Shown piece after piece: positions 24,373-41,639 of a DNA stretch of 55,840 bases. This DNA is from an uncultured Lachnospiraceae bacterium (lineage in GTDB: Bacteria > Bacillota > Clostridia > Lachnospirales > Lachnospiraceae). The notes under the pieces were generated by a model. It saw nothing but the letters and a program-made list of their open reading frames with translations. It searched no databases and had not been told where the DNA came from. Position numbers and translations under genes: made by a program. The stretch spans positions 1 through 55,840 of the forward strand of contig CADANF010000011.1 in NCBI GenBank assembly GCA_902789175.1, given 5' to 3'. The first letter of the stretch is position 1, and each line of letters begins with the position of its first letter.

Positions 24373-25488
24373 TTGGTTAAATTTGTCAAATGGATGATTG
24401 GAATTGTAGCGGCAATGCTACTTTTTATTGTTGTCGCAACATATATAGGAGACCTTAAGGTTGCCTATAACAATGAACTTACTAATACAGCGACTACGAA
24501 GGGGGAAGATGTAACTATTACAATCCCGGAGGGATCATCATCAAAGGAGATAGCAAAAATTCTTAAGGCCAATGGTCTTATAAAATTTGAGAAAGCGTTT
24601 CTTGAAAGACTGCAGGATTCAGAATATGCAGGACGTCTTCAGGCTGGAACATATACCCTTAATACAGGCATGAATACTCTTGATATGATGGCTATGATGA
24701 GCGTAGCTGTTGACTCTGATGCTGTGCTTCAGAAACTTGTTGTTCCGGAAGGTTTTACTGTTGATCAGATAGCAGAGAGATGTGAAGAACAGGATATCTG
24801 TTCTGCAAAAGAATTTAAAAATGCATGTCGGTCTGTGACAAAATCTGATTTTAAATATTTAGAGGATGTTCCGGAAGGTGCAAATGTCAGATATAAGGTT
24901 GAAGGGTATCTTTTCCCGGCTACATATGACATTACAAAAGATACAACAGCAGAATCGCTTGTGGCATGGATGTTAGATACATTTAAAGCTAATTACACAG
25001 AAGAAATGCAGGCTAAGGCTAGTGAGATGGGGCTTACATCATACGATGTGGTGAATCGTGCGGCTATGATCGAACGTGAATGTAAATATGAACAGGAACG
25101 TCCAAGAATTGCAGGAGTTATCAATAATCGTTTAGATGAAGATATGAAGCTGCAGATAGATTCAACTGTACTTTATCCTTTGACAGATGGCTTATACAAT
25201 AAGTCAGAAGTAACATATGGGGATCTTGAAGTTGAATCACCATATAATACATATAAATATTCGGGAATGCCGGTTGGACCAATATGTAATCCTGGTCTTT
25301 CATGTATAAATGCGGTACTTAATCCTGAAAGCCATGAGTATTTATATTACCATGTAATCAACGAAGAAACTGGTGAACATGAATTCTATGAGACATATGA
25401 AGAACATATGGATTCTCAGGGAGGGGATGGCGCTGAGAGTTCAAATTCAGATGAGAGCGAAGGCTCAGATGATTCAGATGACGAATAG
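24373..25488 (+). CDS. mltG: Endolytic murein transglycosylase MltG (YceG family)
   Basis: Cuts nascent peptidoglycan glycan strands at the membrane. One N-terminal membrane segment (W-M-I-G-I-V-A-A-M-L-L-F-I-V-V) is followed by a LysM-like part (I-P-E-G-S-S-S-K-E-I-A) and the catalytic domain. The Glu lies in M-I-E-R-E-C, followed by R-I-A-G-V-I-N-N-R-L and M-K-L-Q-I-D-S-T-V-L-Y-P-L. The frame is open upstream to 24160, but that lies across the divergent cyclophilin start. The TTG at 24373 is chosen (371 residues) because GAGG lies 8 nt before it and the membrane segment begins right after. The C-terminus is an acidic Ser/Asp/Glu tail. It is the first gene of the phospho-signalling gene run. 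Confidence 0.9.
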   Translation: MVKFVKWMIGIVAAMLLFIVVATYIGDLKVAYNNELTNTATTKGEDVTITIPEGSSSKEIAKILKANGLIKFEKAFLERLQDSEYAGRLQAGTYTLNTGMNTLDMMAMMSVAVDSDAVLQKLVVPEGFTVDQIAERCEEQDICSAKEFKNACRSVTKSDFKYLEDVPEGANVRYKVEGYLFPATYDITKDTTAESLVAWMLDTFKANYTEEMQAKASEMGLTSYDVVNRAAMIERECKYEQERPRIAGVINNRLDEDMKLQIDSTVLYPLTDGLYNKSEVTYGDLEVESPYNTYKYSGMPVGPICNPGLSCINAVLNPESHEYLYYHVINEETGEHEFYETYEEHMDSQGGDGAESSNSDESEGSDDSDDE

Positions 25489-25546
25489 TTTTTATGCATA
25501 CCATTAAATAAAAGTACGGACACTGTAAATTTAGGAGGTTTTGGTT

Positions 25547-27172
25547 ATGAGAAGCTTTAGCTTTAAAGCAAGAAATATAGGAGATGAACATTATCTTACC
25601 TACACAATGGGGGAAGGAACAGAAGTTGACGAAGATGTCCTTAACTATTGCGAGGAAAATGAAATAAAAGGACTTGTAAAGATTATTTATGAGGAAGATG
25701 ATGACTATGATTATCTTACTTATGACATAACAGGAAAGGTTTCTCTTGATAAATTTCAGCAGAAGCCATTTAAAAAGGAACAGGCTCTTAAGATTATAAG
25801 AAATATAGCCCTTGGAATCATTGATTGTAAGGAACAGGCTATAAAGATCTCATATCTTTTACTTAATAGAGGGTTCATTTATGTTGATCCACAGACATTA
25901 AATGTCCAGTTTATCTGTCTTCCTGTTGAGAGTAGTGCTTCAGTAGCGACAGAGTTTAAGGGATTTATAAGACAGTTCATTGCTTCGAGTCAGTATGACA
26001 TTGAAGAAGATCTCACATATGTAGGTCAGCTGCTCACATATATCAACGGTGAGGGGTTCAATTTAAGAGGCATTATAGGTCTTTCTGAAGCTCTTATGGA
26101 GGATGCCGGAATTGAATATGAAGCTGAAGATGATGCAATTGCAACCGGCGAAGGTGAAGAAGTTGTGATTGTTACAGAGCAGCCAACGGAGAGTGTTGGA
26201 AGTGTTATGGATAATCTTGGAGATGCAAATGCTCCACTTCCAGAAATCGGTGATGATGAGGAAGAAGATGTTGAAGATGAGGATGTTGATGTGGCAGATA
26301 TTGATGCTGCAGACATTCCAATTCCTGCAGTAAAGGCTGAGGAGCCAGTTCAGGAAGAAACTGAGGAAACAGCTGATGAAGATGAAGGAATCGAACTTGA
26401 AGAAGTAAAAGAAGTAAAAGAAGAGACTGAAGAAGTCGTTAAAAATAATAAATACAGCCTTGTTGCTGATGAAGAAACAGACGAAGACGATGAAGAAGAT
26501 GAGGAGTCACAGCGTATGGCTGCAATGGACGATAACGCTCAGGCGGCTATCGAGGCCAGAATAAAAGCTCTCGCAAATGGCGAAGTTGCTTCAAAGAGTG
26601 AGGCTAAGGCTAAAGCTGAAAGTGATGTACTTAAGTCTGAAAAACCAGAGATGAAGACTAAGATAAAAATCAATCGTGCAGCTATAGTACAGAGTGCAGC
26701 ACAGAATACAGAGGAAGCTGAGGCTGCTGCAACAGAAGAAGAAAAGACATCTGCTGAAGATGAAGTTAATGTATCAGAGGAGGGGGCTGAGACGGAGACA
26801 ACAGTGACAGCAGAACCAGAGACACCAGAGAAGCCGGTGAAAGTTACAAGCTTAACTGGTAAGGAAGGGGCTATCAAAGTTAATCCTTACCTTGTAAGAG
26901 TAACAACAGAAGAAAAGACTATCATCAATAAAGATGTCTTTAAGATTGGTAAAGCTAATCGTGGTGTAGATTATCATATAAGTGGTAACGGAGCTATATC
27001 AAGACAGCATGCGGTGATCACAAAGAAAAAAGATGGCTATTATATCAAAGATAATAAGTCAACTAACCACACATATGTAAACGATAAAAAACTCGAAGAT
27101 GGGGAAGAAATCAAACTTCATAAGGATGATATTGTAAGATTCGCAGATGACGAATATACATTCAAATACTAA
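25547..27172 (+). CDS. DUF6382-like and FHA domain protein, reader 1
   Basis: A cytosolic phosphothreonine reader of 541 residues. About residues 1-175 form a folded domain (S-F-K-A-R-N at the start, then L-L-N-R-G-F-I-Y-V-D-P). The same domain heads the next gene and resembles the DUF6382 region found before FHA domains in clostridia. Residues about 180-440 are very acidic and probably disordered. The last ~90 residues are an FHA domain: F-K-I-G-K, then G-A-I-S-R-Q-H-A and N-K-S-T-N-H-T-Y-V-N. The usual S-x-x-H and N-x-T-x-N residues are present. The ATG at 25547 has AGGAGG 8 nt upstream; an in-frame TTG 6 nt earlier is less likely. The gap after mltG is 58 bp. Confidence 0.85.
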   Translation: MRSFSFKARNIGDEHYLTYTMGEGTEVDEDVLNYCEENEIKGLVKIIYEEDDDYDYLTYDITGKVSLDKFQQKPFKKEQALKIIRNIALGIIDCKEQAIKISYLLLNRGFIYVDPQTLNVQFICLPVESSASVATEFKGFIRQFIASSQYDIEEDLTYVGQLLTYINGEGFNLRGIIGLSEALMEDAGIEYEAEDDAIATGEGEEVVIVTEQPTESVGSVMDNLGDANAPLPEIGDDEEEDVEDEDVDVADIDAADIPIPAVKAEEPVQEETEETADEDEGIELEEVKEVKEETEEVVKNNKYSLVADEETDEDDEEDEESQRMAAMDDNAQAAIEARIKALANGEVASKSEAKAKAESDVLKSEKPEMKTKIKINRAAIVQSAAQNTEEAEAAATEEEKTSAEDEVNVSEEGAETETTVTAEPETPEKPVKVTSLTGKEGAIKVNPYLVRVTTEEKTIINKDVFKIGKANRGVDYHISGNGAISRQHAVITKKKDGYYIKDNKSTNHTYVNDKKLEDGEEIKLHKDDIVRFADDEYTFKY

Positions 27173-27209
27173 ACTTGCCTAATATTATTTCGAGGGGAAG
27201 GTGCGTGCA

Positions 27210-29117
27210 ATGCAGAAAATTAAATTTAATGTAGAAAAAGAAGTTAATATTATCAAGCTTACCTATGTTCTTGAGCCAGCAGATGTTGTTGATGATAGAG
27301 CATTACAGAGATTCAATAAGGATACAGCACCAGGAATAGCAGAATTTAAATATTCTGATGAAAACGGTATAAGAAAAGTAACTAGTGAAGTTCCTGACTA
27401 TCCTAAATTGGGAAGCTTCATAAAGAAGAATCTTACTAAAGTTGAAGTGCTCAAGATATTAAAGAATCTTATGGTTTCTTATTCTATCGGAAATCAGGGT
27501 ATCCCAGTTCATACAGTTATTAAGGATTTAGATTATATTTATATAAATCCTGAAAATTGTGAGACTGTAAGTGTACTCGTGCCTATCAAACAGGAGGGCG
27601 CAAAGGTATCTGAGGTATCATGTTTCTTAAGAGAATTGATCTCAAGAATGAGATTTGATCAGAATGATAAAGATAATTACGTTGCACGCATTCTTACAGA
27701 GTTGAATGTGGATCAGTTTGAATACGGAAGATTCAATGGTCTGATAGATGTAATGCTTTCAATGGCAGCGCCGGCACAGCAGGCGGATAATGTATCTCCG
27801 GTTAAGACTGAAGAGAATACGTCACAGCCAATGAATAATACGACTCAGGGGTCGGTTAAGATTAATAGAATGGCAGTTATGATGAACCGTGGAGCACAGG
27901 CACAGGATATGTCACAGCCGTCTCAGCCAAATCAGGGAATGGGCCAGCCGTCTCAGCCAAATCAGAGAATGGGCCAGCCAGCACCACAGGCATTCCAGCC
28001 AAATTCAGGAATGGGCCAGCCAGCACCACAGACATTCCAGTCAAATCCAGGAATGGGCCAGCCGGCACCACAGGCATTCCAGCCAAATCCAGGAATGGGC
28101 CAGCCGTCTCAGTCAAATCAGGGAATGGGCCAGCCAGCACCACAGGCATTCCAGCCAAATCCAGGAATGGGCCAGCCGTCTCAGCCAAATCTAGGAATGG
28201 GCCAGCCAGCACCACAGGCATTCCAGCCAAATCCAGGAATGGGCCAGCCGTCTCAGCCAAATCAGGGAATGGGCCAGCCGGCACCACAGGCATTCCAGCC
28301 AAATTCAGGTATGAATCAGCCTGCATCAGGCTTTACAAATAATAATGGACAATTCTTTAAACCTACACCAGAACCTGTCAAAGCAACGAAACAGCCGGCA
28401 GCACCAGAACCAGTTAAGGCACCAGAGCAGCCAGTGGCACCAGAAGTTGTCAAAGTACCGGAGCAGCCAGCAGCACCGGAAGCTGTCAAAGTACCGGAGC
28501 AGCCAGTGGCACCAGAACCAGCTAAAGCACCAGAGCAGCCTGTGTTCTCAGAGAAGGCACCTCAGATCCTTCCAGAGGAACAGCCTAAGGCACCTACATT
28601 TAATCCGGAGCCAGGTAAGCCTGCAATTCAGTCTGGACTGGACTTTGAACAGACAACAATAATTAAAGATTATGACAAAACAGAGCCGCTCAGTCAGGGA
28701 GAATCAATTGAAAACCAGCTTAGAATGGCTTTTGGTTCAGCGTCAAAACCAGCAAGAGAACTTGCTGCAACAGGAAGCACAGATGTATTATCTGATGACC
28801 ATGATAGCAATATTCCTGAACCAAATTTCGTGCGTGAGAGAACAGGTGAAAGATTCTTTATCACTAAGCCGGTATTTAAGATCGGTAAATCAAGACTTCA
28901 TGCTGATTATGCCATAGATGGAAATACAGCTATAAGCCGTATCCACTGTCTCATAGTTCAGAAGAATGGAGTTAATTATATAAAAGACAATGCTTCAACT
29001 AACGGAACATTTGTTGATGAAAACAAAGTTGAGGCCTCACAGGAAGTGCTTCTTAAGGATGGAGCTACAGTAAGACTTGGTGATGAAATATTCACTTTCC
29101 ATCTTAAGAGAAGATAA
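27210..29117 (+). CDS. DUF6382-like and FHA domain protein with Gly/Met/Gln/Pro repeats, reader 2
   Basis: A paralogue of the previous gene, 635 residues. The N-terminal ~190 residues match the same DUF6382-like domain (Y-I-Y-I-N-P-E-N near 115). A spacer of tandem G-M-G-Q-P units comes next, then A-P-E-x-V-K-x-P-E-Q-P units. A segment with T482 (T-T-I-I), T491 (T-E-P-L) and T524 (T-D-V-L) follows. The last ~90 residues are an FHA domain (I-G-K-S-R, T-A-I-S-R-I-H, N-A-S-T-N-G-T-F-V). These T-x-x-I/L sites just before the FHA domain recall GarA/OdhI-type proteins, in which a phosphorylated Thr binds the protein's own FHA domain. The ATG at 27210 fits the AGGGGAAGG site better than the GTG at 27201. 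A hairpin follows. Confidence 0.85.
   Translation: MQKIKFNVEKEVNIIKLTYVLEPADVVDDRALQRFNKDTAPGIAEFKYSDENGIRKVTSEVPDYPKLGSFIKKNLTKVEVLKILKNLMVSYSIGNQGIPVHTVIKDLDYIYINPENCETVSVLVPIKQEGAKVSEVSCFLRELISRMRFDQNDKDNYVARILTELNVDQFEYGRFNGLIDVMLSMAAPAQQADNVSPVKTEENTSQPMNNTTQGSVKINRMAVMMNRGAQAQDMSQPSQPNQGMGQPSQPNQRMGQPAPQAFQPNSGMGQPAPQTFQSNPGMGQPAPQAFQPNPGMGQPSQSNQGMGQPAPQAFQPNPGMGQPSQPNLGMGQPAPQAFQPNPGMGQPSQPNQGMGQPAPQAFQPNSGMNQPASGFTNNNGQFFKPTPEPVKATKQPAAPEPVKAPEQPVAPEVVKVPEQPAAPEAVKVPEQPVAPEPAKAPEQPVFSEKAPQILPEEQPKAPTFNPEPGKPAIQSGLDFEQTTIIKDYDKTEPLSQGESIENQLRMAFGSASKPARELAATGSTDVLSDDHDSNIPEPNFVRERTGERFFITKPVFKIGKSRLHADYAIDGNTAISRIHCLIVQKNGVNYIKDNASTNGTFVDENKVEASQEVLLKDGATVRLGDEIFTFHLKRR
27906..28329 (+). 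repeat. Coding minisatellite: 30-nt and 42-nt units (G-M-G-Q-P repeats)
   Basis: About eleven tandem units within the second FHA gene. They alternate between a 10-residue form (G-M-G-Q-P-S-Q-P-N-Q) and a 14-residue form (G-M-G-Q-P-A-P-Q-A-F-Q-P-N-P). Unit-to-unit identity at DNA level is very high, so copy number is likely to vary. The lengths are multiples of 3, so changes keep the frame. Confidence 0.9.
28369..28551 (+). repeat. Coding Pro/Glu/Val/Lys repeats (P-E-Q-P-x-A-P-E)
   Basis: Five imperfect units of 11-12 residues (pattern V-K-x-P-E-Q-P-x-A-P-E) follow the G-M-G-Q-P block. They probably form an extended spacer between the N-terminal and FHA domains. Confidence 0.8.
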
Positions 29118-29127
29118 GAATAACGTA

Positions 29128-29156
29128 AAAACGCTGCTTTTTTAGGCAGCGTTTTG
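29128..29156 (+). terminator. Hairpin between second FHA gene and PP2C gene
   Basis: AAAACGCTGC pairs with GCAGCGTTTT around a T-rich loop. It has only a short T-run, so it may attenuate rather than stop transcription between the reader genes and the phosphatase/kinase genes. Confidence 0.6.
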
Positions 29157-29201
29157 TGGGATATAGAGTTTTATGTGAAATGGGGTTTTTTAAGAAGTAA
29201 A

Positions 29202-29972
29202 ATGAACTTTATTGCGACATATAATACAGATATTGGGATTAAAAAGAATACAAACCAGGATTCACTTGCTATAAGAATAATAGATTCTCCTTTGGGAAAG
29301 GTGGCATTTGCTATTGTATGTGATGGCATGGGTGGACTTTCAAAGGGAGAACTGGCAAGTAAGGAAGTTATAATGGCTTTTACTGACTGGTTTGATAATG
29401 TCTTCGCCACTGAAATAAGTCAGGGGCTTTTTAGTGTATCTAATCTTCATAACAGATGGAATGAAATTATTTTAGAACAGAATAAAAGGTTGGGAAGATA
29501 TGGCGATGAGAACGGCATAATGCTTGGAACCACTGTATCAGCCATGCTTATGATAAATGAAGAATATTATATCGTGCATGTAGGAGACAGCCGTATATAT
29601 GAGCTTAGCGATGTATGTAAGCAGCTTACCAATGATCAGAGCTTTGTTGCCAGAGAGATTGCGATGGGGCGCATGACACCTGAACAGGCGAAGAATGATC
29701 CAAGAAGGAGCATACTGCTTCAGTGTGTTGGAGCTTCAAATGTGGTTGAACCTGATTTCCTTAAAGGAAGTCTTAAGAAGGACGCGGTATATATCCTTTG
29801 TTCTGACGGATTCAGACATCAGATCTCAGATGAAGAGGTAATGGAAAGACTTAGTCCTGAGGCGGCAGACAGTGAAAAAATGTTAAAGTGTGGATGCATA
29901 TATCTTACTGAATTAGTTAAGAAGAGAAGGGAAACAGATAATATAACTGTTTCAGCAATAAGAACGTTATAA
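29202..29972 (+). CDS. PP2C-family Ser/Thr phosphatase
   Basis: Dephosphorylates Ser/Thr-phosphorylated proteins; the expected partner of the kinase gene 13 bp downstream. The 256-residue cytosolic protein has N-Q-D-S-L, C-D-G-M-G-G, G-T-T-V-S-A, H-V-G-D-S-R-I-Y and C-S-D-G-F-R, which supply the metal-binding Asp residues, and D-N-I-T-V near the end. This is the bacterial Stp/PrpC type. The ATG at 29202 is chosen because the PP2C fold begins immediately after it (M-N-F-I-A-T-Y-N-T-D-I-G). The in-frame extension to 29154 overlaps the preceding hairpin. AAGAAG is the ribosome binding site. Confidence 0.94.
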   Translation: MNFIATYNTDIGIKKNTNQDSLAIRIIDSPLGKVAFAIVCDGMGGLSKGELASKEVIMAFTDWFDNVFATEISQGLFSVSNLHNRWNEIILEQNKRLGRYGDENGIMLGTTVSAMLMINEEYYIVHVGDSRIYELSDVCKQLTNDQSFVAREIAMGRMTPEQAKNDPRRSILLQCVGASNVVEPDFLKGSLKKDAVYILCSDGFRHQISDEEVMERLSPEAADSEKMLKCGCIYLTELVKKRRETDNITVSAIRTL

Positions 29973-29985
29973 TAGGGGTTAGGGA

Positions 29986-32094
29986 ATGGCGACAAAAGTA
30001 GGTACAATACTTGATGATAAATATGAAATACTTAAAGAGATAGGCCGCGGTGGAATGTCGATCGTTTATCTTGCGTTTGACCACAGACTTAATAAGCAGT
30101 GGGCAATAAAAGAGATTAAAAATGATGGATCAAAAAGCACAAAGACTCTCCTTAAGGGCTTGGAGAGAGAAGCCAATATCCTGAAGAATGTAGATCATCC
30201 TGTTCTTCCAAGAATTGTTGATATTATCAACAGCAATGGCGTTATCTATGTTGTAATGGATTTTATAGAAGGAACAAACCTTGCGGAAATCTTAAAGAAA
30301 GAAGGAGCTCAAAAGCAGGAAGATGTTATTGAGTGGGCAAAACAGCTGGCTTCAGCTCTTGATTACCTTCATTCTATGAATCCACCTATCATATATCGTG
30401 ATATGAAACCGGGAAATGTAATGCTTAAACCGGAAGGTGGAGTAAAACTTATCGACTTTGGTACAGCAAAAGAATTTACTCAGGAAAATAATGCAGATAC
30501 TACGGCTCTTGGTACAAGAGGTTATGCTGCGCCGGAACAGTTTGGTGATGCACAGGGGCGTGGGTTATATAAAACAGATGCAAGAACAGACATTTATAAT
30601 TTAGGGGCAACTCTGTATCATATGGTTACAGGGATGAATCCTTGTGAACCTCCATATGAGATAAAACCTATCAGAAGATGGAATGCATCTCTTTCAGCAG
30701 GTTTAGAACAGATCATTCTTAAATGTACCCAGCCCAACCCTACAGACAGATATCAATCCTGTTCTGAACTTCTTTACGCTCTGGATCATTATACAGAGCT
30801 GGATGAATCCTATAAATCAGAAAATAAACTGAAACTTGCTCTTTTCGGCATATGTGCTGCTCTTTCTATAGTAGGAGCAACTGTATCTACTATGGGATAT
30901 AAGGGAATGAAGCGAGTGCTTCAGGAAAATTATACAGCTTACATTGATCAAGGTAATACATATAAGGTACAGAAGAATTATCAGGAAGCTGCAGAGCAGT
31001 ATAAATTAGCATTTGACCTTAAGGGAAATGAAGCAGATGCATATGTAAGTTACATAGATCTTTATATTGATGCATCAAAGGATAAGGATATCGATGAAAA
31101 AGATGCATTAAAGCTTCAGGATGGCTTAGGAACTATTGCCAATCGAGTTAATAACAGTACTGCCGGGGCGTCAAAAAATCCGGAAGTGCTTTACAGACTG
31201 GGACTGGCTTATTTTGCTGAGTTATCAGATTATAAAGCTGCATATAAATATTTCAGCATGATCGATGCAGAAGATCCTACCTATGGAGAACTGGCAAGAT
31301 ATTACGGAAGCATATCACTGATTCTTTCCAGTAACAGTGTAAATGTTATGAACTTAATGGAAGAAGTAAATGGATTTGCTGATTATAACATGACCAAGTT
31401 TATTAATAGTGATGAGCAGAAATTCATCAACTATGAAATGCTTGGAAGGATCTATGCTACCTATATCCAGACAGAGGGGGTTGCAGAAAAAGCTGAAACT
31501 GTAATGAGTCAGGCTGTAACAGATCTTGCAGATTATGATGGTGATAATGCAACTAATTTTGATTATGAATTTAATAATTCACTTTCAGAAATATATTATC
31601 AGTTAGGAAAAGAAAATCCTTCATTCTATGAATTGGCAATAGATGCTTGTAATGAGGTGGCTTCACAGGCGGTTGGAAACTTAAGCATTGCCAAGAATTC
31701 CATAGGAAATGATACTATTACAGCTTATCGTGTCGCTTATATGAATAAGATGTGCCGTATAGCAGAAATCTATGGTATTGAAGGAAAGAGTGATAAAGCC
31801 GAAGAGACATATATTCAGGCGGAAAAAGTATTAAGAGGTGAGGGAGAGGTAGCATCAGACTACCTTGCCAAGGTTTATACTGAACATCTAACATACTTAT
31901 ATAATACATATACGACCAAAGACGGAAATGACATTACCAAGTGGCCTAGACAGGATGCTGCTAAGATAATTTCAGTATATAACGAAGGTTCAGCTGTAGA
32001 AGGAATAAGCAAGATGTCAAACTGGATAAAGAGAGTTCCTGATATGGAAACATTAAAATCGCAGTTTGGTAATTCTGAAGGGGGGGCTGAATAA
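29986..32094 (+). CDS. Membrane Ser/Thr protein kinase with extracytoplasmic TPR-like domain
   Basis: A Hanks-type kinase, 702 residues. The Gly loop is I-G-R-G-G-M-S-I-V-Y (19-28), the catalytic Lys is K42, and the catalytic loop Y-R-D-M-K-P-G-N has D139 (Y in place of the usual H). D157-F-G is followed by an activation loop with Thr residues (T-T-A-L-G-T-R-G-Y-A-A-P-E). One membrane segment lies at about 283-304. The outer ~390 residues are helical with TPR-like pairs (Y-x-x-A-A-E-Q-Y-K-L-A-F, Y-K-A-A-Y-K-Y-F) instead of the PASTA repeats of PrkC/PknB, so it probably does not sense muropeptides in the PASTA manner. It lies 13 bp after PP2C, and its stop overlaps the next start by 1 nt. Confidence 0.93.
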   Translation: MATKVGTILDDKYEILKEIGRGGMSIVYLAFDHRLNKQWAIKEIKNDGSKSTKTLLKGLEREANILKNVDHPVLPRIVDIINSNGVIYVVMDFIEGTNLAEILKKEGAQKQEDVIEWAKQLASALDYLHSMNPPIIYRDMKPGNVMLKPEGGVKLIDFGTAKEFTQENNADTTALGTRGYAAPEQFGDAQGRGLYKTDARTDIYNLGATLYHMVTGMNPCEPPYEIKPIRRWNASLSAGLEQIILKCTQPNPTDRYQSCSELLYALDHYTELDESYKSENKLKLALFGICAALSIVGATVSTMGYKGMKRVLQENYTAYIDQGNTYKVQKNYQEAAEQYKLAFDLKGNEADAYVSYIDLYIDASKDKDIDEKDALKLQDGLGTIANRVNNSTAGASKNPEVLYRLGLAYFAELSDYKAAYKYFSMIDAEDPTYGELARYYGSISLILSSNSVNVMNLMEEVNGFADYNMTKFINSDEQKFINYEMLGRIYATYIQTEGVAEKAETVMSQAVTDLADYDGDNATNFDYEFNNSLSEIYYQLGKENPSFYELAIDACNEVASQAVGNLSIAKNSIGNDTITAYRVAYMNKMCRIAEIYGIEGKSDKAEETYIQAEKVLRGEGEVASDYLAKVYTEHLTYLYNTYTTKDGNDITKWPRQDAAKIISVYNEGSAVEGISKMSNWIKRVPDMETLKSQFGNSEGGAE

Positions 32095-32918
32095 TGAGTA
32101 CATACAGAATAATGTTCATTGGCGGCATGGTAGCTTTTATCATGTTTTTGATACTGGCAGTGGTTATCTTTATAGTGCTGAATATTCCAAAGGCCTTCGG
32201 TGTAGTTACCGGGCGGGCAGAAAAGAGGGCAATCGAACAGATCAGAAAAGCTGGTTATGAGAGAATGTCAAAACAGGAAGCAATCCGCAATTCCAGTGGA
32301 CGTATCAAAGCCAGAGAAGCTGATATGAATACGGATAAACAGAAAAAACATAGAAAGAAAAAACAGGGAGAAACCAGTGAAAAATTAGAGGCGCTGGATC
32401 CGGAAAAAGAAAAGAAGATAGCCAAAGAAGCGGCTAGAGAGGCGGAACTTAGAAAAGAAGAAGAAAGAAGAGTATTTGAAGAGAACCAGAGAATCAAAAA
32501 CACAATTAAAAAAGCTGAAGGACCAACGGATGTACTCGAAGAAAGGATCAAGCAGGGAGAAGAAAAAACAGCAGTGCTTGATATAGAATCAGGAGAAGAA
32601 AAAACAGCAGTGCTTGATATAGAATCGGGAGAAGAAAAAACTGATCTTCTTGATGATCTAAACGGTGAAGAAGAGACCGAGCTTTTGGAGGACTTAAGAA
32701 GTGAAGATACAACTGATGCACTTTCTTCATATAATGCAGAAGCCGTAACAGATGCACTTTCAAGCGGTGAAAGTGATATGGATGTATTAGGAAATTATAG
32801 CCCGGAAGAAACAGCGGTTCTTAAAGATATGCACAATACAAGATATTCTGCTACCGGTGTAATTAAAGTTTTATACAGTGAGACGGTGGTACATACTGAC
32901 GAAATTCTGGATATATAG
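32094..32918 (+). CDS. Small membrane protein with a ladder of Thr-x-x-Leu/Ile motifs, likely kinase substrate
   Basis: A 274-residue protein with no family I recognise. One N-terminal membrane segment (about 8-30) is followed by a basic region (R41-K100), a charged coiled coil (about 100-142) and an acidic tail. The tail carries T-x-x-L/I at T145, 159, 171, 183, 195, 207, 219, 240, 254 and 268, with a degenerate copy at M229. Spacing is mostly 12 residues, and most sites have acidic residues just before the Thr (E-E-K-T-A-V-L-D). T-x-x-L/I is a known phosphothreonine pattern bound by FHA domains, and the operon encodes a Thr kinase, a phosphatase and two FHA proteins. I infer a multivalent phospho-docking platform at the membrane. 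Translation is coupled to the kinase (TAATG). Confidence 0.8.
   Translation: MSTYRIMFIGGMVAFIMFLILAVVIFIVLNIPKAFGVVTGRAEKRAIEQIRKAGYERMSKQEAIRNSSGRIKAREADMNTDKQKKHRKKKQGETSEKLEALDPEKEKKIAKEAAREAELRKEEERRVFEENQRIKNTIKKAEGPTDVLEERIKQGEEKTAVLDIESGEEKTAVLDIESGEEKTDLLDDLNGEEETELLEDLRSEDTTDALSSYNAEAVTDALSSGESDMDVLGNYSPEETAVLKDMHNTRYSATGVIKVLYSETVVHTDEILDI
32556..32663 (+). repeat. 36-bp tandem repeat encoding T-x-x-L units
   Basis: Copies 32556-32591 and 32592-32627 differ only at the last base. A third, diverged copy follows to about 32663. Each encodes one 12-residue unit with one Thr, pointing to recent amplification of the motif. Confidence 0.9.
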
Positions 32919-32934
32919 AAAAGGGAGAAAAAAT

Positions 32935-35900
32935 ATGATAGCTAAAAAAAGCATAAAAACAAGGGCGATGGCGCTTGTGCTTGCACTTGCTATGATAATA
33001 AGCGTGACTTATATAGACGGCAGAAAAAAGAGTGTATCAGCAAGAGGCGGAGTTATCGTCAAGGGAGAATTTGATGATGTCATTATTACTCTTGAAGGTG
33101 ATGACATTCCAATTATTAAGTTTGACTCAGGAGATTTAGGTGGGGCATCTATTAGTATGAGAAATTTAGAAGCTACCGTCTTAAGTCCTGCTGTTTATGC
33201 GGTAGAGGCGCCTAACATTAAAATTGAAAGTGATTTAGATTCCGAATCTGAATACAAAGATTATGTTCCGGTGGCTTTTTTTACAGATGATGAATATTCT
33301 AAAGAGCTTACAACTGATGTAAAGATTGAAGAGGGCGATGTAAAAGAGCTTGAAATTGGAAAGTCTTATAATCTTTACTTTGCATTTGAAAAAACAAATG
33401 ATGAAGGCGGATATGAGTATAAAGAGATCACTAAGGGAGCAGTTTACTCTATAAATTATGTAAATGTTAATGATGCCCTTAAGTTTATGCTTAGCAAAAA
33501 TGAGGCAGGCAGAAACTATAGCTTATCACTTAAAACTGATAAGACTAATATAAAGAAACATATTGTTGGATATTTCTATTATTACGTTGGAGATAAGGAC
33601 ACAGTTGCTGATATTTCTTCATCTGAATGGAAATATAATGGAGAACTTACTGATGTAAATATTTCTGATGTTACTAATAAGACTTATCATGCTTTCTATC
33701 AGTATGAGATAGATGGAACTGATATCAAAGAAACGGGTAAGGTTGGAAATGGCCTTGATCCAGTACCTGCTATAGTTACTCCTTCTGTAACTGTTACACC
33801 AGAAAAAGAGGATCCTAATAAGGCACTTATTGAAGATACAAAAGAAGATGGCGTTATAGTATCGTCTAACGTATCAAATCTTACAGCTTTAAGTACTGTG
33901 ACAGTAACATTTAAGAGCGATACAGATAATACAGAGATTGAAACAACAACTTTAGATGGAATTGCAGATGTTAAAGAGGAAGAAAAGGACGCAGGACGAG
34001 TCGTTAGAAGTCTTTACAGTGCTGGAGATTCTACATCTTTTGTAATTAAGAATTCCAATGAAATTTCTGGGGCAAAGAATTACATATTTGCTTTTAAGGC
34101 AGAAAATGAAGAAGAAACATACTATGCACTTACAATCAATTATACAGATGTAAATCCTGCTATCACTGTTACAAAACCTGAAACAAAAACAGTGATCAAT
34201 TCGGAAAGTGAAGAAAAGACAAATGTTCCAGTGGAAGCAAGCGCTTCCATAAAGGGAGCATCTACTCTTTCGACTATCGTATCTGCAAGATATTTTAATG
34301 ATGAAGAGTCAAAAGATCTTACTGTTGGGGCATTAAAAGATGGTAATTATCCTATAACAGGAAATGTCAAAGTAGAAAACGATGGCGTATATAAATATAA
34401 GATAGAGGTTGCAAATAACGAAGGCGTAAAGGCTGTTTCTGATGAGTTTGAGATAGTTAAGGATACAGTTAAGCCTGAAATAACAGATCTTACAATTAAG
34501 CAGGATGGAAATATAATTTCATCAGCAGAAAAGGTTACAAGTGCTAAAGATGTAGAGGTATCATTTAAAGTCAGTGATTCAGGCAGTGGCGTTAAAGAGG
34601 TAACTTTTGACGGAACTGCACTTGTACCGGATTCAAACGGTATTTATAAAAAAGCAATTGAAAAGGCTGCGTTAGAAAAGAATAAAGAATATCAGTTTAC
34701 AGTGATTGCTTCTGATGTAGCTGGTAATAATAATGACAGCATTGTAACAATTCCTACTTATGAAGATAATGTAGATATTGAACTTAAAGAAGTAAGCGTT
34801 AATGATGAGAAGAAAGCTGTTAATATTTCTGAAGGTGATGTAGATCCGGAAAATAACATTACTAATAGTGAGGACTTAACTTTTAAATTTGATATTAAGA
34901 CAGATGTCTTACTTACAGATAGTGTTATAGCAAAAGTAAGGATCAATGCCAGTGAACAGAGTGTAGATACAGCGGATATAGAATTAACAAAGGCTGGTTC
35001 TAAATCTTCGGATTCATATTATCATTCAACACTTTCTATTCATGTAAAATTAAATAAGGATGCTGTAATAAACGGCCTTTCTGTCGGCCTTACAAATGTA
35101 AATGGTGTAAGTAACGAGGCTAAAGTTGGAGTTGTAAATGTGGATATGACAGCTCCGGATCCTGCAATCGAAGAGGTTGCAGAGGAAACATCTAAGGGTT
35201 TTACAGTAGATGGAAAAGACTGGTACAAGAAGCTGGTTGTAAAGGTTAATTTTGCTGATACAACAGAAGGTTCTTATAAATCAGGAACAGAAGCTGTAAC
35301 AATAACCGGAGTTAAAGATGAAGAAGGAAAGATAAAAGATGGAAAAGTCCTTGATCTTTCTTCAGGAACTGTAGTTGCTACAATTAAAGATTCTGCAACA
35401 ACAGATGGTACCTTATTTAAGGTATGGGCAAAGGATAAAGCAGGAAATGAAAAAGAGACTGAAGACGTAACATTTTATGTGGATTCTGCTGTTCCTACTG
35501 TAAAAGAAGAAAAGAATCTTTCTCTTGGTTCAGGTGTTGAAAAGGATAAAGATTATCAGACAGGAAATCCAGAGATTTTCTTTGAAGCAGAAGATAATCT
35601 TGGAATATATCAGTATAAGGTCAGTGTGAAATACGCTTCTATAACAAAAGAAAAGACCTATGTATGGTCAGAAGACGGTATTTATAAAGATGGAACAGCT
35701 GACTATAGTGATGTGGATATAGCTACAGTATTTGGTAAAAAGAATGAAAGTTCTCTTTATCCTGAAGACGGTACATATGTAGTAAATGTTACTGCCTACG
35801 ACCGTGCAGGAAATGAAGTTAAAGCACTAGAGAAGAAAGTAACAGTAGATAATACAATACCTAAGAATGACATCAAGATTAATAATAATTTAGCTTTAGT

Positions 35901-38900
35901 TTTCAATGATGAACTTTATATCCCTCAGGCAACAGATATAGTTATGGGATATAACTATGGAAAGTTCTATAATAAAGAATTGAATCTTGATTTCTTTGTA
36001 ACTGATGCAAATGTTAAAAAAGAAGATATAACAGTCACTGAAAAGGGCGATGGCACTGAAGAAACAGTAAGTCTCGAGTGGATAGACACTGATTATGGCT
36101 GGTATGCAAGCTATGTTTTGGGTGGAGAAGGAAAGCATTTAATAACCATCCAGGCGAAGGATCAGGCAGAAAATATTTCTGTTACAAAGAATATTTTAGT
36201 TGTAATTGATGAAACTAAACCTTCAGCCATAGCTGGAAAAGAATTTAAAATAGGTGACGGATCTGAATCGATAAAGGGAGATCCAGAAATCATATTTGAT
36301 GCAGTTGATAAAGCTGAGGCAGAAGGAACGACTGTAAGTGGAATCTATGAATATGTAGTAAAGGTAGATTCTACAACAATGAATTATACAGGTGACACTG
36401 AACAGGAAGCCTCTCTTCCATCTGTTCTTAAACTTAGTACAGTATTAGGAAATACACCTGCAGAAGGAGAGCATACAGTTTCTATCGAAGTTAAAGACAG
36501 AGCGGGAAATGTGTATCAGGCAGGTGAAAAGAAGGTTATCATTGATAACACTGCTCCTGTAGCTGAAATAACAGGAGTTTATGGAACTTGCAATTATATC
36601 GATCAGTATAGTCAGTTTTATACAAGTCATAGTAATTTAGATAGTTATTTCTATGGAGTTTATTATACTGGCGTAGTTAAGATTGGGGCTAGTATAAAGG
36701 ATAACCATCTTTCAACTGATAAGGCTGGAAATATAGTTTTTACTGATGAAATACTTGATGCAGATGGAAATGTTTTAAATGAAGAAACAAAGAATATAGA
36801 AGTTGCTGAATGGGAAAAAAAGGTAGTTGATTCGGATGCTTATTATATTGTAAAAGATCTTGAAATATCAGAAGAAGGCAGACATAGAATAAGCGTAAAA
36901 GCAAGAGATGATGCCGGAAATGAATCTGAAATAGCAAAGGTATCATTTGTAATTGATGGAACAAAGCCTGTTGAGGTAACACCATTAAAGGTTGGAGATC
37001 AGAATGCAGCAGTTCAGGTTGGAGATCCTGCCATTAAATTCAGTGCAGTTGATGTTAAAAAAGAAGAATCACCTGTGGGAACAGTAGCAAGTGGAATTAA
37101 CCATTACATAGTACATGTTGATTCAAAGAGTGTAAGCTACTACGGAAATGAAGAAAGTGAGGCAGGTCTTCCGGATGATTTAAAACTTAGTACAGTACTT
37201 AATGATGAAAATGTAGAGAGTTTTGTAACTCCTGAAGGGGCTCATGAGATTTATATTGAGGCATATGATAAAGCCGGAAATGTAATGACCACAGAGAAAA
37301 AGACTGTGATAATCGATAACACAGCGCCAAAAGCCGATATAAAGGTAAGCACAAATAATTCTACATTTGATAAATATAAGACTGAGTATAAGTCAAAGGG
37401 AATTGTTGAGGATTATTTCTATGGTTCTTACTATAACGGAGATGTAACATTTGACGTTGTTGTTGAAGATGAAAATATCAACATAGCAAGTGAGAATATT
37501 ACAGTTACAGATTCTCTTGGAGATGAGTTAAGCCCAGAGTGGACTGAAACAATCAGTGGAGGAAAGAAAGGCTATAAGGCTGAAAACCTCTTGGTTTCAA
37601 GCGAAGGAAATCATACAATTACTGTAACAGTGACTGATGATGCTGGAAATAAATTAGAAAAAACAGTTACAGCAAGCTTTATCATTGATAAGACCAAGGC
37701 TGATAACGGAAGTCTTACTATAGGAAATGGAAAACCTGTACAGAGCGGTGATCCTGTTCTTACCTTCAGCTATCAGGATAATATAAGTGGAATAGATACA
37801 TATGATATTAAAGTAAAGAATTCAGATAAGGATTCTTATATCGAAACCACAAAGCAGGATAAGACTTCTGGTGTTAAAGTATCAGAGATAATCGATAAAG
37901 TGCCTGAAGAAGGACTGTTAGATGTTACAGTCTATGCAAATGATAAAGCAGGTAATAAGACTGATGATACATCTTCAGTAACAAAGTCAGTTATCATTGA
38001 TAATACAAAACCACTTAATGATATTTATATTGTGAGTGGAAATGCGCCAAAGCAGAGCAGTGGCTATGAAAACAGTTATAAATGCCAGGACCCTGAAAGA
38101 GGAGATTCAACTTACGGTCAGTACTTTAACACTAGTGTAAAGATCAAGGCTTATATCAAGGATAGAAATGTAAAGGCTTCTGGTATAACAGTTACTGATA
38201 ATGGAAATACAGTTAATGTAAACTGGACTGAATTACTTAGTTCTGGCGAGAGTACTGGTTTTGAATCTGCAGAATTAACTATTTCTGAAGAAGGTCATCA
38301 TGCCGTAGTGATAAAGACAGAGGACGAAGCAGGTAATAAATCTGTGGAATCAAAGATTGACTTTACTATCGATAAAACAAAACCGGTGGTTACTGCATAT
38401 GTAAATGGTGAAGAGTACTCATCTGATGATAAGTATATGGCTCTTGACAGAGTGAAATTCTCTGTTGCAGTATCAGACAGCCATAAGGATACAAAAGATG
38501 TATATAGAACTTATCATTATACAAAGCTTTCGGGAGATTCTCCTGAAAGTTATGAAGGCTATCTTTCTGAATCACAAGGCATTTATCAGGTGGATGAAAA
38601 AACTGAAAATGGTATCTATAAGCTTACTTATAAGGCAACTGACCTTGCAGGTAATGAAAGTGATGTAAAGACTGTTGAGATAGTTCTTGATAACACACTT
38701 CCAAATGCGGATATCTACATTTCAACTCCAAATCCAGCCAAGTTTGACAAGTATAAGAATAGCTACAGTGATAAGGCGACTCTTGCTTATCCTGAGGGAC
38801 TTACTTATCAGTATGGTCAGTACTATAACAGAAATGTAGATATAACATTTAAGGCTTCTACATATGAATTTGCTTCAGTAACAGTAACTGATAATGGAGA

Positions 38901-40554
38901 AGATATAACACCTTCTTTCAGTGACGAAAAGGCTGGAGTAAAGACGGGACATGTGACTATTTCTGATGAGGGAAGTCATGATATAAGAATGATCGTTAAG
39001 AATAAGGCAGGATCTCAGTCGGAAGTAAGAAGTGTAAGCTTTGTTATTGATAAGACGGCTCCTGTTATAAATACAGCTCTTGATAATATCAATGTAACAA
39101 ATGGTTCAGATGAGAGATATTTAGATCATGATGGAAGTCTTTTGGTAAGTGTGAGTGATGCAAATGCGGATGGAGATGATCTTACAAGAACTCTCAGCAT
39201 AACACGTCCACAGCAGGGAACCGAAACCAGTGAAGCAAAAATCTCTGAGGGAACAACATCCTATTCTACAGAAGCAGATTATGAGGTGAAGTTTGTAGCA
39301 GTTGACAGAGCTGGTAATAAGAGTGAAGAAAGAATCGTAAGATTCAGAGTTGATAAGACAGCTCCTGTACTTACTATTGACGGGGTACTTAAGGATAGTG
39401 TCAACCAGAAAAATGTTACTGCATCTTATAATATCGATGAAGCATTCTACAGCGACATGGTATCAGCAAAGGTTGATGTCTATAGAAAACTTGATGGAAC
39501 AGCTGAAACACTTCTTAGAACAGTAGAATTAAAGCCAACATCTGATCCATATTCATTATCGGAAATGTTTAATGAAGATGGTGAATACAGATTTGTATTC
39601 TCTGCAGAAGACAGAGCTGGTAATAAGACGGAATATGCTTACAGCTTTAAACAGGATGGAACAGCTCCTGTGATAGCCCTTTCAGGTGTAAGCAATTATG
39701 ATAAGACAGTTGATCCAGTAACATTACATGTAATGGTTCAGGAGAACTTCTTTACAACTAATACCATTAACTTAAGTGGTACAAGACGAGACGCAGATGG
39801 AAAGACATATTCCATTGAATTTACATCTTATAACATAAACGAATCAAGTAATTCAGAATTCAGTCAGTTATTTGAAGAAGATGGTATATATGATATTACA
39901 GTTGTTTCTAAAGATGCAGCAGGAAATGAATCAAAACAGTCTGTGCATTTTACTATAGATTCAACAGATCCTGTTATAGGAAGTCTCGAAAGATTTGATG
40001 GAAAGACATTAAGTGGATTTAAGTGGACTGATAAAGATGATGATGTAGTTAAAGACCTTACAACCTGCCAAATCAAGATTTATCTTGATGGAACAGAATA
40101 TGACGGTCTTTCAAAGTTAGAGGACGGCAGCCACATATTAAAGGTTGAAGCAGTGGATGAACTGGGTAATACATCTGTTAAAGAAGTATCATTTATGCTG
40201 GATACTATAGCTCCTGTTATCATGATCAGTGGTATAGAGAATGGAGAAGTGATAAGAGAATCAAGAGAGATCAGCATCGCACTTCAGTTAGAAGATGATA
40301 CTATTGAGTCAGTAAAACTTAATGGCAAGGATATTGCAGTTTCAGATAATAAAGCAGTTCTTACAGTAGATGAACCTGGTGACTATAAACTGGTGGTTGT
40401 TGCAAGAGATGCTGCAGGAAATGAAACGGTCACAACATATGAATTTACATTTAAGAAGAAAGTAAATTACATGCTGCTGATAATCCTTGGAAGTGCAGGA
40501 CTTCTGGCACTTATTGCTCTTATAGCGGTGGCAAAGAGAAGAAGAAAAAAATAA
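32935..40554 (+). CDS. Giant Ig-like repeat surface protein, 2539 residues
   Basis: A secreted, membrane-anchored surface protein. The N-terminus is a signal peptide (K-K-S-I-K-T-R, hydrophobic core, S-V-S-A). The body is a chain of bacterial Ig-like modules. About 17 boundaries read (V/I)-x-D-x-T-x-P, usually preceded by A-x-D-x-A-G-N. The C-terminus is a membrane segment with K-R-R-R-K-K and no LPxTG, so it is held in the membrane rather than linked by sortase. Five modules share a longer unit with Y-G-x-Y-Y-N followed by I-T-V-T-D-x-G. The ATG at 32935 has an AAGGGAG site; the longer frame from 32878 overlaps the previous gene and would mask the signal peptide. The gap to the T-x-x-L gene is 16 bp. 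The role could be adhesion or wall attachment; the ligand is unknown. Confidence 0.9.
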   Translation: MIAKKSIKTRAMALVLALAMIISVTYIDGRKKSVSARGGVIVKGEFDDVIITLEGDDIPIIKFDSGDLGGASISMRNLEATVLSPAVYAVEAPNIKIESDLDSESEYKDYVPVAFFTDDEYSKELTTDVKIEEGDVKELEIGKSYNLYFAFEKTNDEGGYEYKEITKGAVYSINYVNVNDALKFMLSKNEAGRNYSLSLKTDKTNIKKHIVGYFYYYVGDKDTVADISSSEWKYNGELTDVNISDVTNKTYHAFYQYEIDGTDIKETGKVGNGLDPVPAIVTPSVTVTPEKEDPNKALIEDTKEDGVIVSSNVSNLTALSTVTVTFKSDTDNTEIETTTLDGIADVKEEEKDAGRVVRSLYSAGDSTSFVIKNSNEISGAKNYIFAFKAENEEETYYALTINYTDVNPAITVTKPETKTVINSESEEKTNVPVEASASIKGASTLSTIVSARYFNDEESKDLTVGALKDGNYPITGNVKVENDGVYKYKIEVANNEGVKAVSDEFEIVKDTVKPEITDLTIKQDGNIISSAEKVTSAKDVEVSFKVSDSGSGVKEVTFDGTALVPDSNGIYKKAIEKAALEKNKEYQFTVIASDVAGNNNDSIVTIPTYEDNVDIELKEVSVNDEKKAVNISEGDVDPENNITNSEDLTFKFDIKTDVLLTDSVIAKVRINASEQSVDTADIELTKAGSKSSDSYYHSTLSIHVKLNKDAVINGLSVGLTNVNGVSNEAKVGVVNVDMTAPDPAIEEVAEETSKGFTVDGKDWYKKLVVKVNFADTTEGSYKSGTEAVTITGVKDEEGKIKDGKVLDLSSGTVVATIKDSATTDGTLFKVWAKDKAGNEKETEDVTFYVDSAVPTVKEEKNLSLGSGVEKDKDYQTGNPEIFFEAEDNLGIYQYKVSVKYASITKEKTYVWSEDGIYKDGTADYSDVDIATVFGKKNESSLYPEDGTYVVNVTAYDRAGNEVKALEKKVTVDNTIPKNDIKINNNLALVFNDELYIPQATDIVMGYNYGKFYNKELNLDFFVTDANVKKEDITVTEKGDGTEETVSLEWIDTDYGWYASYVLGGEGKHLITIQAKDQAENISVTKNILVVIDETKPSAIAGKEFKIGDGSESIKGDPEIIFDAVDKAEAEGTTVSGIYEYVVKVDSTTMNYTGDTEQEASLPSVLKLSTVLGNTPAEGEHTVSIEVKDRAGNVYQAGEKKVIIDNTAPVAEITGVYGTCNYIDQYSQFYTSHSNLDSYFYGVYYTGVVKIGASIKDNHLSTDKAGNIVFTDEILDADGNVLNEETKNIEVAEWEKKVVDSDAYYIVKDLEISEEGRHRISVKARDDAGNESEIAKVSFVIDGTKPVEVTPLKVGDQNAAVQVGDPAIKFSAVDVKKEESPVGTVASGINHYIVHVDSKSVSYYGNEESEAGLPDDLKLSTVLNDENVESFVTPEGAHEIYIEAYDKAGNVMTTEKKTVIIDNTAPKADIKVSTNNSTFDKYKTEYKSKGIVEDYFYGSYYNGDVTFDVVVEDENINIASENITVTDSLGDELSPEWTETISGGKKGYKAENLLVSSEGNHTITVTVTDDAGNKLEKTVTASFIIDKTKADNGSLTIGNGKPVQSGDPVLTFSYQDNISGIDTYDIKVKNSDKDSYIETTKQDKTSGVKVSEIIDKVPEEGLLDVTVYANDKAGNKTDDTSSVTKSVIIDNTKPLNDIYIVSGNAPKQSSGYENSYKCQDPERGDSTYGQYFNTSVKIKAYIKDRNVKASGITVTDNGNTVNVNWTELLSSGESTGFESAELTISEEGHHAVVIKTEDEAGNKSVESKIDFTIDKTKPVVTAYVNGEEYSSDDKYMALDRVKFSVAVSDSHKDTKDVYRTYHYTKLSGDSPESYEGYLSESQGIYQVDEKTENGIYKLTYKATDLAGNESDVKTVEIVLDNTLPNADIYISTPNPAKFDKYKNSYSDKATLAYPEGLTYQYGQYYNRNVDITFKASTYEFASVTVTDNGEDITPSFSDEKAGVKTGHVTISDEGSHDIRMIVKNKAGSQSEVRSVSFVIDKTAPVINTALDNINVTNGSDERYLDHDGSLLVSVSDANADGDDLTRTLSITRPQQGTETSEAKISEGTTSYSTEADYEVKFVAVDRAGNKSEERIVRFRVDKTAPVLTIDGVLKDSVNQKNVTASYNIDEAFYSDMVSAKVDVYRKLDGTAETLLRTVELKPTSDPYSLSEMFNEDGEYRFVFSAEDRAGNKTEYAYSFKQDGTAPVIALSGVSNYDKTVDPVTLHVMVQENFFTTNTINLSGTRRDADGKTYSIEFTSYNINESSNSEFSQLFEEDGIYDITVVSKDAAGNESKQSVHFTIDSTDPVIGSLERFDGKTLSGFKWTDKDDDVVKDLTTCQIKIYLDGTEYDGLSKLEDGSHILKVEAVDELGNTSVKEVSFMLDTIAPVIMISGIENGEVIRESREISIALQLEDDTIESVKLNGKDIAVSDNKAVLTVDEPGDYKLVVVARDAAGNETVTTYEFTFKKKVNYMLLIILGSAGLLALIALIAVAKRRRKK
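34450..40240 (+). repeat. Ig-like module array inside the giant surface protein
   Basis: About 17 module boundaries of the form (V/I)-x-D-x-T-x-P. A family of five longer modules carries Y-G-x-Y-Y/F-N/T near nucleotides 35955, 36652, 37420, 38112 and 38812. The copies are clearly related at protein level but diverged at DNA level, suggesting an old array. Confidence 0.8.
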
Positions 40555-40571
40555 TCTGGACGGAGATTTTT

Positions 40572-41246
40572 ATGGCAGAAAGATTTAAGGCGGCGGTATT
40601 TGACATGGATGGGGTCATATTTGATTCAGAAAAGATCTACCGACAAAGTTATTATAAGGTGGGAGAGATTTATGGCTTTTCAAAGGAAGATACCGACAGA
40701 TTTTGCGAAGTCTGTGCAGGGGGCACAAGGGAGAAAAATGCATTAAGGTTTAAAGACATCTTTGGCGATGCAGTAGATTACAGTATCTATAGAGCCAAGG
40801 CCCATGCCCTGGTGGATGAACATGGTCAGACTTTGGGATTTGAGTTAAAAAAAGGTGTTAAAGAAACCCTCAGCAGTCTTAAAAGTGAAGGGGTAAAGAT
40901 TGCCCTCGCTACATCTACAGCAAAAGAAAGAGCAGAACATTATCTTTCTGAACATGATATCTTAAAATATTTTGATGAGATAGTTTATGGAGATCAGGTT
41001 CTGCATGGAAAGCCGGAACCGGATATTTTCCTTAAGGCCTGTGAAAAGCTTAATGTAAGTCCCGGGTGTGCTGTTGGAATAGAAGATTCCATAAATGGAG
41101 TCAGAGCATCTCATAGTGCAGGGCTTTATACAGTGATGGTGATCGATCTTATCATGCCAAATGATGTGGCAAGACAAAATACTGATCAGATAAGCGAAAC
41201 CATAACAGAAATTCTTCCTTTGTTCGGGATAGAAAATAACAGATAA
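40572..41246 (+). CDS. HAD-superfamily phosphatase (beta-phosphoglucomutase-like)
   Basis: A soluble phosphohydrolase or mutase of 224 residues. The HAD motifs are complete: D-M-D-G-V-I-F-D-S (catalytic Asp 11 and Asp 13), A-T-S-T-A-K near residue 117, K-P-E-P-D-I-F, and G-I-E-D-S-I-N-G. A helical cap sits between motif I and motif II, as in beta-phosphoglucomutase and phosphoglycolate phosphatase. The substrate is not readable. It is 17 bp downstream of the giant surface protein gene and probably ends that transcript; a terminator follows. Confidence 0.9.
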   Translation: MAERFKAAVFDMDGVIFDSEKIYRQSYYKVGEIYGFSKEDTDRFCEVCAGGTREKNALRFKDIFGDAVDYSIYRAKAHALVDEHGQTLGFELKKGVKETLSSLKSEGVKIALATSTAKERAEHYLSEHDILKYFDEIVYGDQVLHGKPEPDIFLKACEKLNVSPGCAVGIEDSINGVRASHSAGLYTVMVIDLIMPNDVARQNTDQISETITEILPLFGIENNR

Positions 41247-41507: not shown

Positions 41508-41561
41508 TAACGCAGATTATTCGGTTCTTATAAGTTAGAAGCGTAAGCTTTTAACCAAATT

Positions 41562-41596: not shown

Positions 41597-41639
41597 ACAT
41601 TGTTTAGACATATGAATTATCGGAAGGATATTTAATTTA

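Follow-up and report, generated by a model that had tools for sequence, protein, structure and literature searches.

The window analysed here, a stretch of 55,840 nucleotides that is contig C11 of genome G000 of an uncultured Lachnospiraceae bacterium (2.75 Mb, 78 contigs, rated 99.64% complete), carries a conserved cassette of seven genes in the order mltG-FHA1-FHA2-PP2C-kinase-ladder-giant. With a probability that we put at roughly 60%, this cassette represents a version, lacking the secretion machine, of the set of reader, phosphatase, kinase, ladder and giant found in the type VII secretion system (T7SS) variants T7SSe and T7SSj, captured beside mltG and working as a phosphothreonine docking switch on the envelope. 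What is new is an mltG-linked cassette that has no secretion ATPase at its locus and that occurs in genomes with no detectable EssC, WXG100 or Tad CpaF.

The block had been described as eight same-strand genes, and reading of the open frames together with the Pfam families bears this out, with all eight on the forward strand. The gene mltG (24373..25488, exact start uncertain) encodes an endolytic lytic transglycosylase of the MltG/YceG family (PF02618, E 1.2e-81). It is followed by two readers, FHA1 (25541..27172; PF00498 4.2e-16, PF19909 4.7e-15), a TsxJ-like protein made up of a DUF6382 domain with a predicted kinase-like fold, an acidic linker and a C-terminal FHA domain, and FHA2 (27201..29117; PF00498 2.2e-14), in which a DUF6382-like domain is joined to an FHA domain by a long MGQP/Pro-rich linker. 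The TsxF-like PP2C/PPM phosphatase (29202..29972) is of the PP2C_2 family, with matches to PF13672 (8.5e-9) and to NF033484 (4.1e-48, which lies under the cut-off of that model). The TsjD-like Hanks-type kinase (29986..32094; PF00069 6.2e-49) has one transmembrane helix and a predicted extracytoplasmic TPR superhelix, and the TsxK-like ladder protein (32094..32918) has an N-terminal transmembrane helix, six T-x-[VIL]-L motifs in its cytoplasmic tail and a conserved C-terminus, a Pfam search of the window's version giving no family match. The TsxI-like giant (32935..40554; PF19077 3.5e-52, PF12245, PF13750) has immunoglobulin (Ig)-like Big_13/Big_3 domains, a signal peptide and a C-terminal transmembrane segment with a short basic tail, all membrane features being those read from the sequence. 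The starts at ~29202 for PP2C, picked by eye, and at ~32935 for the giant are the likelier ones and correct earlier calls.

It is apparent that this order is a property of the genus and not of a single contig. The preliminary description had staked the module on the order of its neighbours in related genomes, and that order held in 57 genus loci, these being the window and 56 loci fetched from relatives (rumen Eubacterium/Lachnospiraceae), which were read by similarity to the window genes. All seven genes stand in order in 27 of the 57, and in the remainder genes are missing at the ends of the stretches, the exceptions being G034, which has neither FHA2 nor giant, and G021, which has no giant. 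Where both members of a pair are held they adjoin without exception (mltG-FHA1 31/31, FHA1-FHA2 31/31, FHA2-PP2C 51/51, PP2C-kinase 54/54, kinase-ladder 56/56, ladder-giant 49/49). At L148, L156, L068, L070 and L183 FHA2 reads as two frames. The giant comes directly after the ladder gene in 49 of the 56 loci with a ladder gene, five others stop at most 735 bases past the ladder and two are without a giant.

The flanks of the cassette are variable. On the 5' side of mltG there is a peptidyl-prolyl isomerase gene in 11 of the 29 loci that extend there and something else in 18, and among the 37 loci that reach beyond the giant the next gene encodes a HAD phosphatase in 22, a radical SAM protein in 8 and something else in 7. 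As the gene after the giant varies in this way, the HAD_2 hydrolase of the window (40572..41246; PF13419 1.7e-32), which had been counted as a member of the module, is rejected as such and taken to be a mere neighbour. A second set of 46 loci from named genomes, largely the same genomes and therefore not independent, agrees with the seven-gene order save in the same two species (L154, L158), the hosts being gut and rumen Eubacterium/Lachnospiraceae that include E. ruminantium ATCC 17233 (L167), AC2031 (L163) and AC2029 (L129). L126 and L127 are nearly identical to the window. Of 61 genus genomes, 57 have the outer half of the kinase; the four without it are 73 to 87% complete, and every genome with completeness of 90% or more and contamination of 5% or less has it (31/31).

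T-x-[VIL]-L occurs 316 times in 46 ladder sequences compared with 16.9 expected from shuffles, so the membrane "T-x-x-L ladder" that had been described has a motif count far above chance, and in 44 of 45 sequences none of 500 shuffles reached the observed count when M was also allowed at +3 (a 66-residue fragment from L148 is within the totals and outside this per-protein shuffle). FHA domains read phosphothreonine. Past residue 60 there are 303 Thr versions of the motif against 16 with Ser, though T (1009) and S (999) are equally common there, and since FHA domains read phosphothreonine this near-exclusive use of Thr is what FHA reading predicts. Acidic residues (E/D) precede the motif Thr at -3 and -2; position +1 is taken by D/E/A/S, and V predominates at +2. 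Strict Thr, acidic flanks and Leu at +3 make the ladder protein a likely phosphothreonine docking substrate, the part that it had been given in the preliminary description. Among eleven further genes in and around the block, only ppi has T-x-[VIL]-L at more than twice the shuffled count (5 vs 1.4, in 12 short sequences). Ser versions are above shuffles in PP2C (87 vs 10.6), kinase (60 vs 30.3), FHA1 (20 vs 11.2) and MltG (20 vs 10.3), an excess that was set aside as ordinary conserved sequence.

The ladder is probably not peculiar to the mltG-linked form. A profile made from its transmembrane and juxtamembrane part only, run on 4096 open frames of 60 other loci, gave 14 matches below 1e-3, all 14 of them beside a cassette kinase by gene coordinates, and at the T7SS locus L110 a hidden Markov model of the ladder N-terminus matches the K position (E 8.8e-14). 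By sequence, then, the ladder protein is of the TsxK kind, since its profile finds K proteins beside cassette kinases. The motif, taken as T-x-[VIL]-[LM], is carried at least twice by ten of the 14, once by three and by one not at all, and six of the ten without an mltG link have at least two. The Thr motif thus runs through most of the TsxK kind, in 13 of the 14 further K-type proteins, and is longest in the mltG-linked form and single in three Tad-linked proteins, a distribution that is also new. The surroundings of these matches differ, with EssC and WXG100 genes at L110, the start of EssC at the stretch edge of L113 and Tad genes at L112, L239 and L241. Shuffling gave a total of 38 against 2.8 expected, a total that includes two non-K neighbours from L239 and L241, and 4 of 11 K proteins fail p <0.001 (L112, L114, L239, L241). 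In the K-type protein at L118 (703-1431) the ladder repeats are ETTVM-like, several times, in place of TxVL.

The two FHA proteins were described as sharing an N-terminal domain and this is confirmed by profile comparison (hhalign probability 99.7, E 3.7e-25). FHA2 N-termini match DUF6382 in 14 of 16 members when E values as lenient as 10 are admitted (best 7.5e-8), that of the window at 0.007, under the cut-off. The phosphate-binding residues of the textbook FHA domain include GR. Both FHA domains of the cassette lie above the Pfam cut-off and keep Ser-Arg-x-His and Asn in the pocket, but have GK for GR, the motif GK...SR.H...STN being present in 28 of the 28 FHA1 orthologues listed. From the structural model DUF6382 is predicted to take a kinase fold, which would make the readers pseudokinase-FHA proteins, a fold that is new for them; EssB/YukC (6z0f) is Foldseek rank 14 for the same model (E 6.1e-5), with no profile match to 6z0f. 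GarA and OdhI are FHA proteins with an intramolecular T-x-x-[LI]-type arrangement, and a like motif before the FHA2 domain was found in 12 of 34 only and is therefore not general. The FHA2 linkers (~27800-28700 in the window, and in orthologues) have MGQP/Pro-rich repeats of very variable length, and many contigs of relatives break there. A third DUF6382-FHA protein of G000, with a canonical GR pocket, lies on C33 beside TadE/TadG-like genes (L007, 2764-4062).

The kinase has the Lys, catalytic Asp (YRD) and DFG motifs by eye, and the logic of writer, eraser and readers that was proposed for the kinase, PP2C and the FHA proteins is supported. Its outer half, described beforehand as TPR-like, is modelled by AlphaFold2 (AF2) as a TPR superhelix (mean predicted local distance difference test, pLDDT, 89.7) whose best PDB matches are TPR proteins. 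It is possible to outline how the switch might work, and we infer phosphorylation, docking, the cue and an output in envelope remodelling through MltG or the giant. With its TPR ectodomain the kinase would sense the envelope, perhaps through contact with the membrane-anchored Ig giant, and would phosphorylate several of the [DE]xT[DEAS]VL threonines on the tail of the ladder protein. Both FHA1 and FHA2 may then dock on the ladder phosphothreonines by their FHA domains, which would gather their kinase-like DUF6382 domains near MltG and the giant at the membrane, with PP2C resetting the ladder.

A number of points weigh against this account. Affinity in the FHA pockets could be weak, given GK for GR in both and STNHT for STNGT in 27 of 28 FHA1, and profile comparisons found no sequence kinship of DUF6382 to kinases, which leaves the predicted fold without sequence support. 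MltG, whose direct control by the switch had been put forward, is without an excess of the ladder motif (5 observed vs 10.9 expected) and is linked to it by position alone, and no direct evidence was found for control over the export of the giant, the other output suggested. Three Tad-linked K proteins have one motif each, within chance, and one further K protein has none; the loss of FHA2 and giant discussed below is a single event in one lineage. Promoter and terminator scans gave no clear excess over shuffles (58 vs 57.8; 10 vs 8.7) and do not decide for or against a single transcript, which could be split by a hairpin followed by T's that is visible by eye between FHA2 and PP2C in the window (~29129-29155). 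Finally, the absence of secretion machines is an absence of matches, in draft genomes except for G004.

Other explanations take the cassette to serve a structure encoded elsewhere or the giant itself. The match of its components to TsxJ, TsxF, TsxD, TsxK and TsxI, in the available part of PMC11217815, would also suit a regulator that acts in trans on a distant EssC, the giant then being an envelope conduit as proposed for TsdI. Related cassettes do stand beside EssC in L110 and, at the stretch edge, in L113, and an EssC query of 34 genus genomes with the cassette found EssC in 11 (in G038 as a fragment). G000 itself probably has a type VII system of its own, as it holds three WXG100 loci, of which one is truncated at a contig end and the other two have what by eye is an LXG-like gene, and as contig C49 opens with 113 residues that match the C-terminus of EssC; independence from the machine therefore rests on the relatives. 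Against such a role, 22 of the 34 have no EssC match, with FtsK-type matches only and in G042 none whatever, not even FtsK, which points to assembly gaps in that genome. A PF01580 search of 33 of these genomes agrees except for G038, and WXG100 matches occur in 11 of the 33 and in none of the other 22, those of G023 and G030 lying below the family cut-off. The EssC-less genomes include the single-contig G004 (AC2031), which has the cassette and CpaF and matches neither EssC nor WXG100. Within the window block there is no EssC/TsxC ATPase gene and no WXG100 (TsxA) gene, the ubiquitin-like TsxB not having been searched for; the FtsK_SpoIIIE match of G000 is FtsK itself, on C3, and its WXG100 matches are on other contigs. 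Regulation of a type VII machine in trans is on this evidence highly improbable.

Control of a Tad pilus in trans is brought to mind by the usual place of DUF6382-FHA genes, as 30 of 40 fetched Clostridia DUF6382 loci (from 39 of the 94 genomes with a match) hold a TadE-, TadG- or TadZ-like gene, although TadZ-like genes are also found at T7SS loci. A CpaF query of the 34 genus genomes gave full-length matches in 28 and partial ones in G026, G032 and G037. The Tad-like locus of G000 has, however, a DUF6382-FHA gene of its own, and G001, G021 and G055 carry the cassette (in G021 without the giant) with no CpaF match above background, only distant ATPases. G001 (E. ruminantium ATCC 17233) and G055 hold all seven cassette genes and have no match to EssC, WXG100 or CpaF, G055 being 91% and G021 95% complete. 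No CpaF/TadE/TadG-like gene was recognised in the window, the CpaF match of G000 lying on C43 and its TadE/TadG-like genes on C33, and we consider this role very unlikely. It is also unlikely, if rather less so, that the main role of the switch is to control how the Ig giant, as an adhesin, is displayed or processed, MltG then opening the wall for it or being a chance neighbour. The giant is last in the block, has by sequence a signal peptide and a C-terminal anchor, and has been lost together with the loss or decay of FHA2 where kinase, PP2C, FHA1 and ladder stay. G034, without FHA2 and giant, still has seven ladder motifs, whilst G021, without the giant, has lost the FHA2 pocket motifs and has two ladder motifs only; as these are sisters with moderate support (94/86) the losses count as one event. 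They hint at a role of FHA2 on behalf of the giant and at a separate task for FHA1, PP2C, kinase and ladder. The giant, though, has inside the cell only its short basic tail, so it is not obvious how the switch could act on it, and mltG adjoins FHA1 in all 31 loci holding both.

The docking switch on the envelope, which we prefer to these, is not without relatives. The combined system had appeared undescribed, a claim that has to be withdrawn for its parts, as five component types correspond to TsxJ/F/D/K/I of T7SSe and T7SSj in the available part of PMC11217815. There TseJ is a DUF6382-FHA protein, TseF a PPM phosphatase, TseD/TsjD a kinase, with TPR in TsjD, and TseK has one transmembrane helix and a short unstructured cytoplasmic stretch; of the giants TsdI and TseI, TsdI is Ig-like with a signal peptide and a C-terminal transmembrane segment. 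Whilst J (DUF6382-FHA), F (PPM), D (TPR membrane kinase), K and I are shared with the window, the cassette differs from T7SSe/T7SSj in having no TsxC ATPase or WXG100 at the locus, a pair of J proteins where those have one, an adjoining mltG and long Thr ladders, and in occurring also in genomes with no EssC match. The same source raises threonine phosphorylation as a possible control of several type VII variants, and its available part names no substrate and holds neither a Thr ladder nor a kinase-like nature of DUF6382. It also gives the threonine pathway of the type VI secretion system (T6SS), in which a membrane kinase phosphorylates a membrane protein and binding of an FHA protein is promoted (PMC11217815). 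The cassette would share these three elements with a Gram-negative injection machine from which it otherwise differs. Tad loci with DUF6382-FHA share the order FHA-PP2C-kinase-K-(transmembrane protein)-giant at L239 and L241 but have pilus genes, which the window locus does not, and single-motif K proteins. In the PMC literature DUF6382 is named in a single paper, and among the papers listed by searches no other account of the cassette was found by title or start of abstract, subscription papers and preprints being outside the search, and FHA domains together with MltG and kinase, or with Lachnospiraceae and kinase, appeared only in unrelated work.

In mycobacteria the kinase of the FhaA/FhaB operon has a PASTA ectodomain. 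That operon, FhaA-FhaB-phosphatase-RodA-PbpA-PknA-PknB in the available part of PMC11898655, is by analogy the nearest functional precedent, bringing two FHA proteins, phosphatase, kinase and cell-wall enzyme into one conserved block, and FhaA has been proposed there to inhibit precursor translocation via the phosphorylated pseudokinase domain of MviN. The window has TPR for PASTA, MltG for RodA/PbpA, and the ladder protein and Ig giant in addition. With no RodA/PbpA in the window block and a TPR outer half on the kinase, the cassette does not belong to the FhaA-PknB type; a PknB-like kinase beside a PP2C gene is found on contig C2 of G000.

The ladder is a concrete candidate substrate for the threonine phosphorylation raised as a possibility for type VII variants in the available part of PMC11217815, and the occurrence of the cassette with no machine suggests that the giant (TsxI) can have a role other than that of a secretion conduit. 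It also argues for a single phosphothreonine cassette that has come to work with T7SS in some cases, with Tad pili in others and here with a cell-wall enzyme. If true, the kinase-like fold of DUF6382 would add a widespread pseudokinase family, as DUF6382 was matched in 94 of 293 Clostridia genomes. A broader proposal, which we hold tentatively and at a little under even odds, is that K proteins serve as scaffolds for phosphothreonine docking, with several docking sites each at type VII and machine-free loci, and are the missing kinase substrates that pseudokinase-FHA proteins read, with the mltG-linked form an independent envelope control that needs no secretion machine.

A family-wide kinase profile matched 54 of 298 Lachnospiraceae genomes at 1e-3, and counting a cassette kinase only below 1e-70 leaves six genomes of five genera. 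The order mltG-FHA1-FHA2-(gap)-kinase-ladder-giant is seen at L108, with an overlapping opposite frame tabulated at the PP2C position, and the cassette order holds at L106 and L107 as far as the stretch goes; at L109 two inserted genes set mltG apart and there is no FHA1. A tree of kinase domains (64 rows) places the 49 mltG-linked kinases together in a single clade (97/94); many of its other branches are long, with unsure joins. At the Tad loci L239 and L241 it is one extra transmembrane gene that comes between K and giant. A cassette at L111 (7866-15000) is accompanied by a DnaJ-like gene, by eye, and by a second kinase-like gene beside an FHA gene.

A number of smaller observations were made along the way. 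Many genus genomes have pairs of frames of ~680 and ~1500 residues, ~7 kb apart and with weak FtsK matches, which might have been a divergent EssC; the one pair examined, that of L249 (1281-11085) in G059, is of the VirD4/VirB4 conjugation type. Assembly breaks of G000 seem to fall in type VII substrate loci, with contig ends in WXG100 clusters that have LXG-like genes by eye (L012, L013, L015, L248), and the window itself opens inside the end of an apparent polymorphic-toxin gene that is followed by a small gene (77-1067). Directly 3' of the cassette and the HAD gene, at 41367-43043, lies an ordinary clostridial ranthipeptide pair, the six-cysteine peptide SCIFF (TIGR03973, 2.9e-23) with the radical SAM enzyme that matures it (TIGR03974, 1.8e-228).

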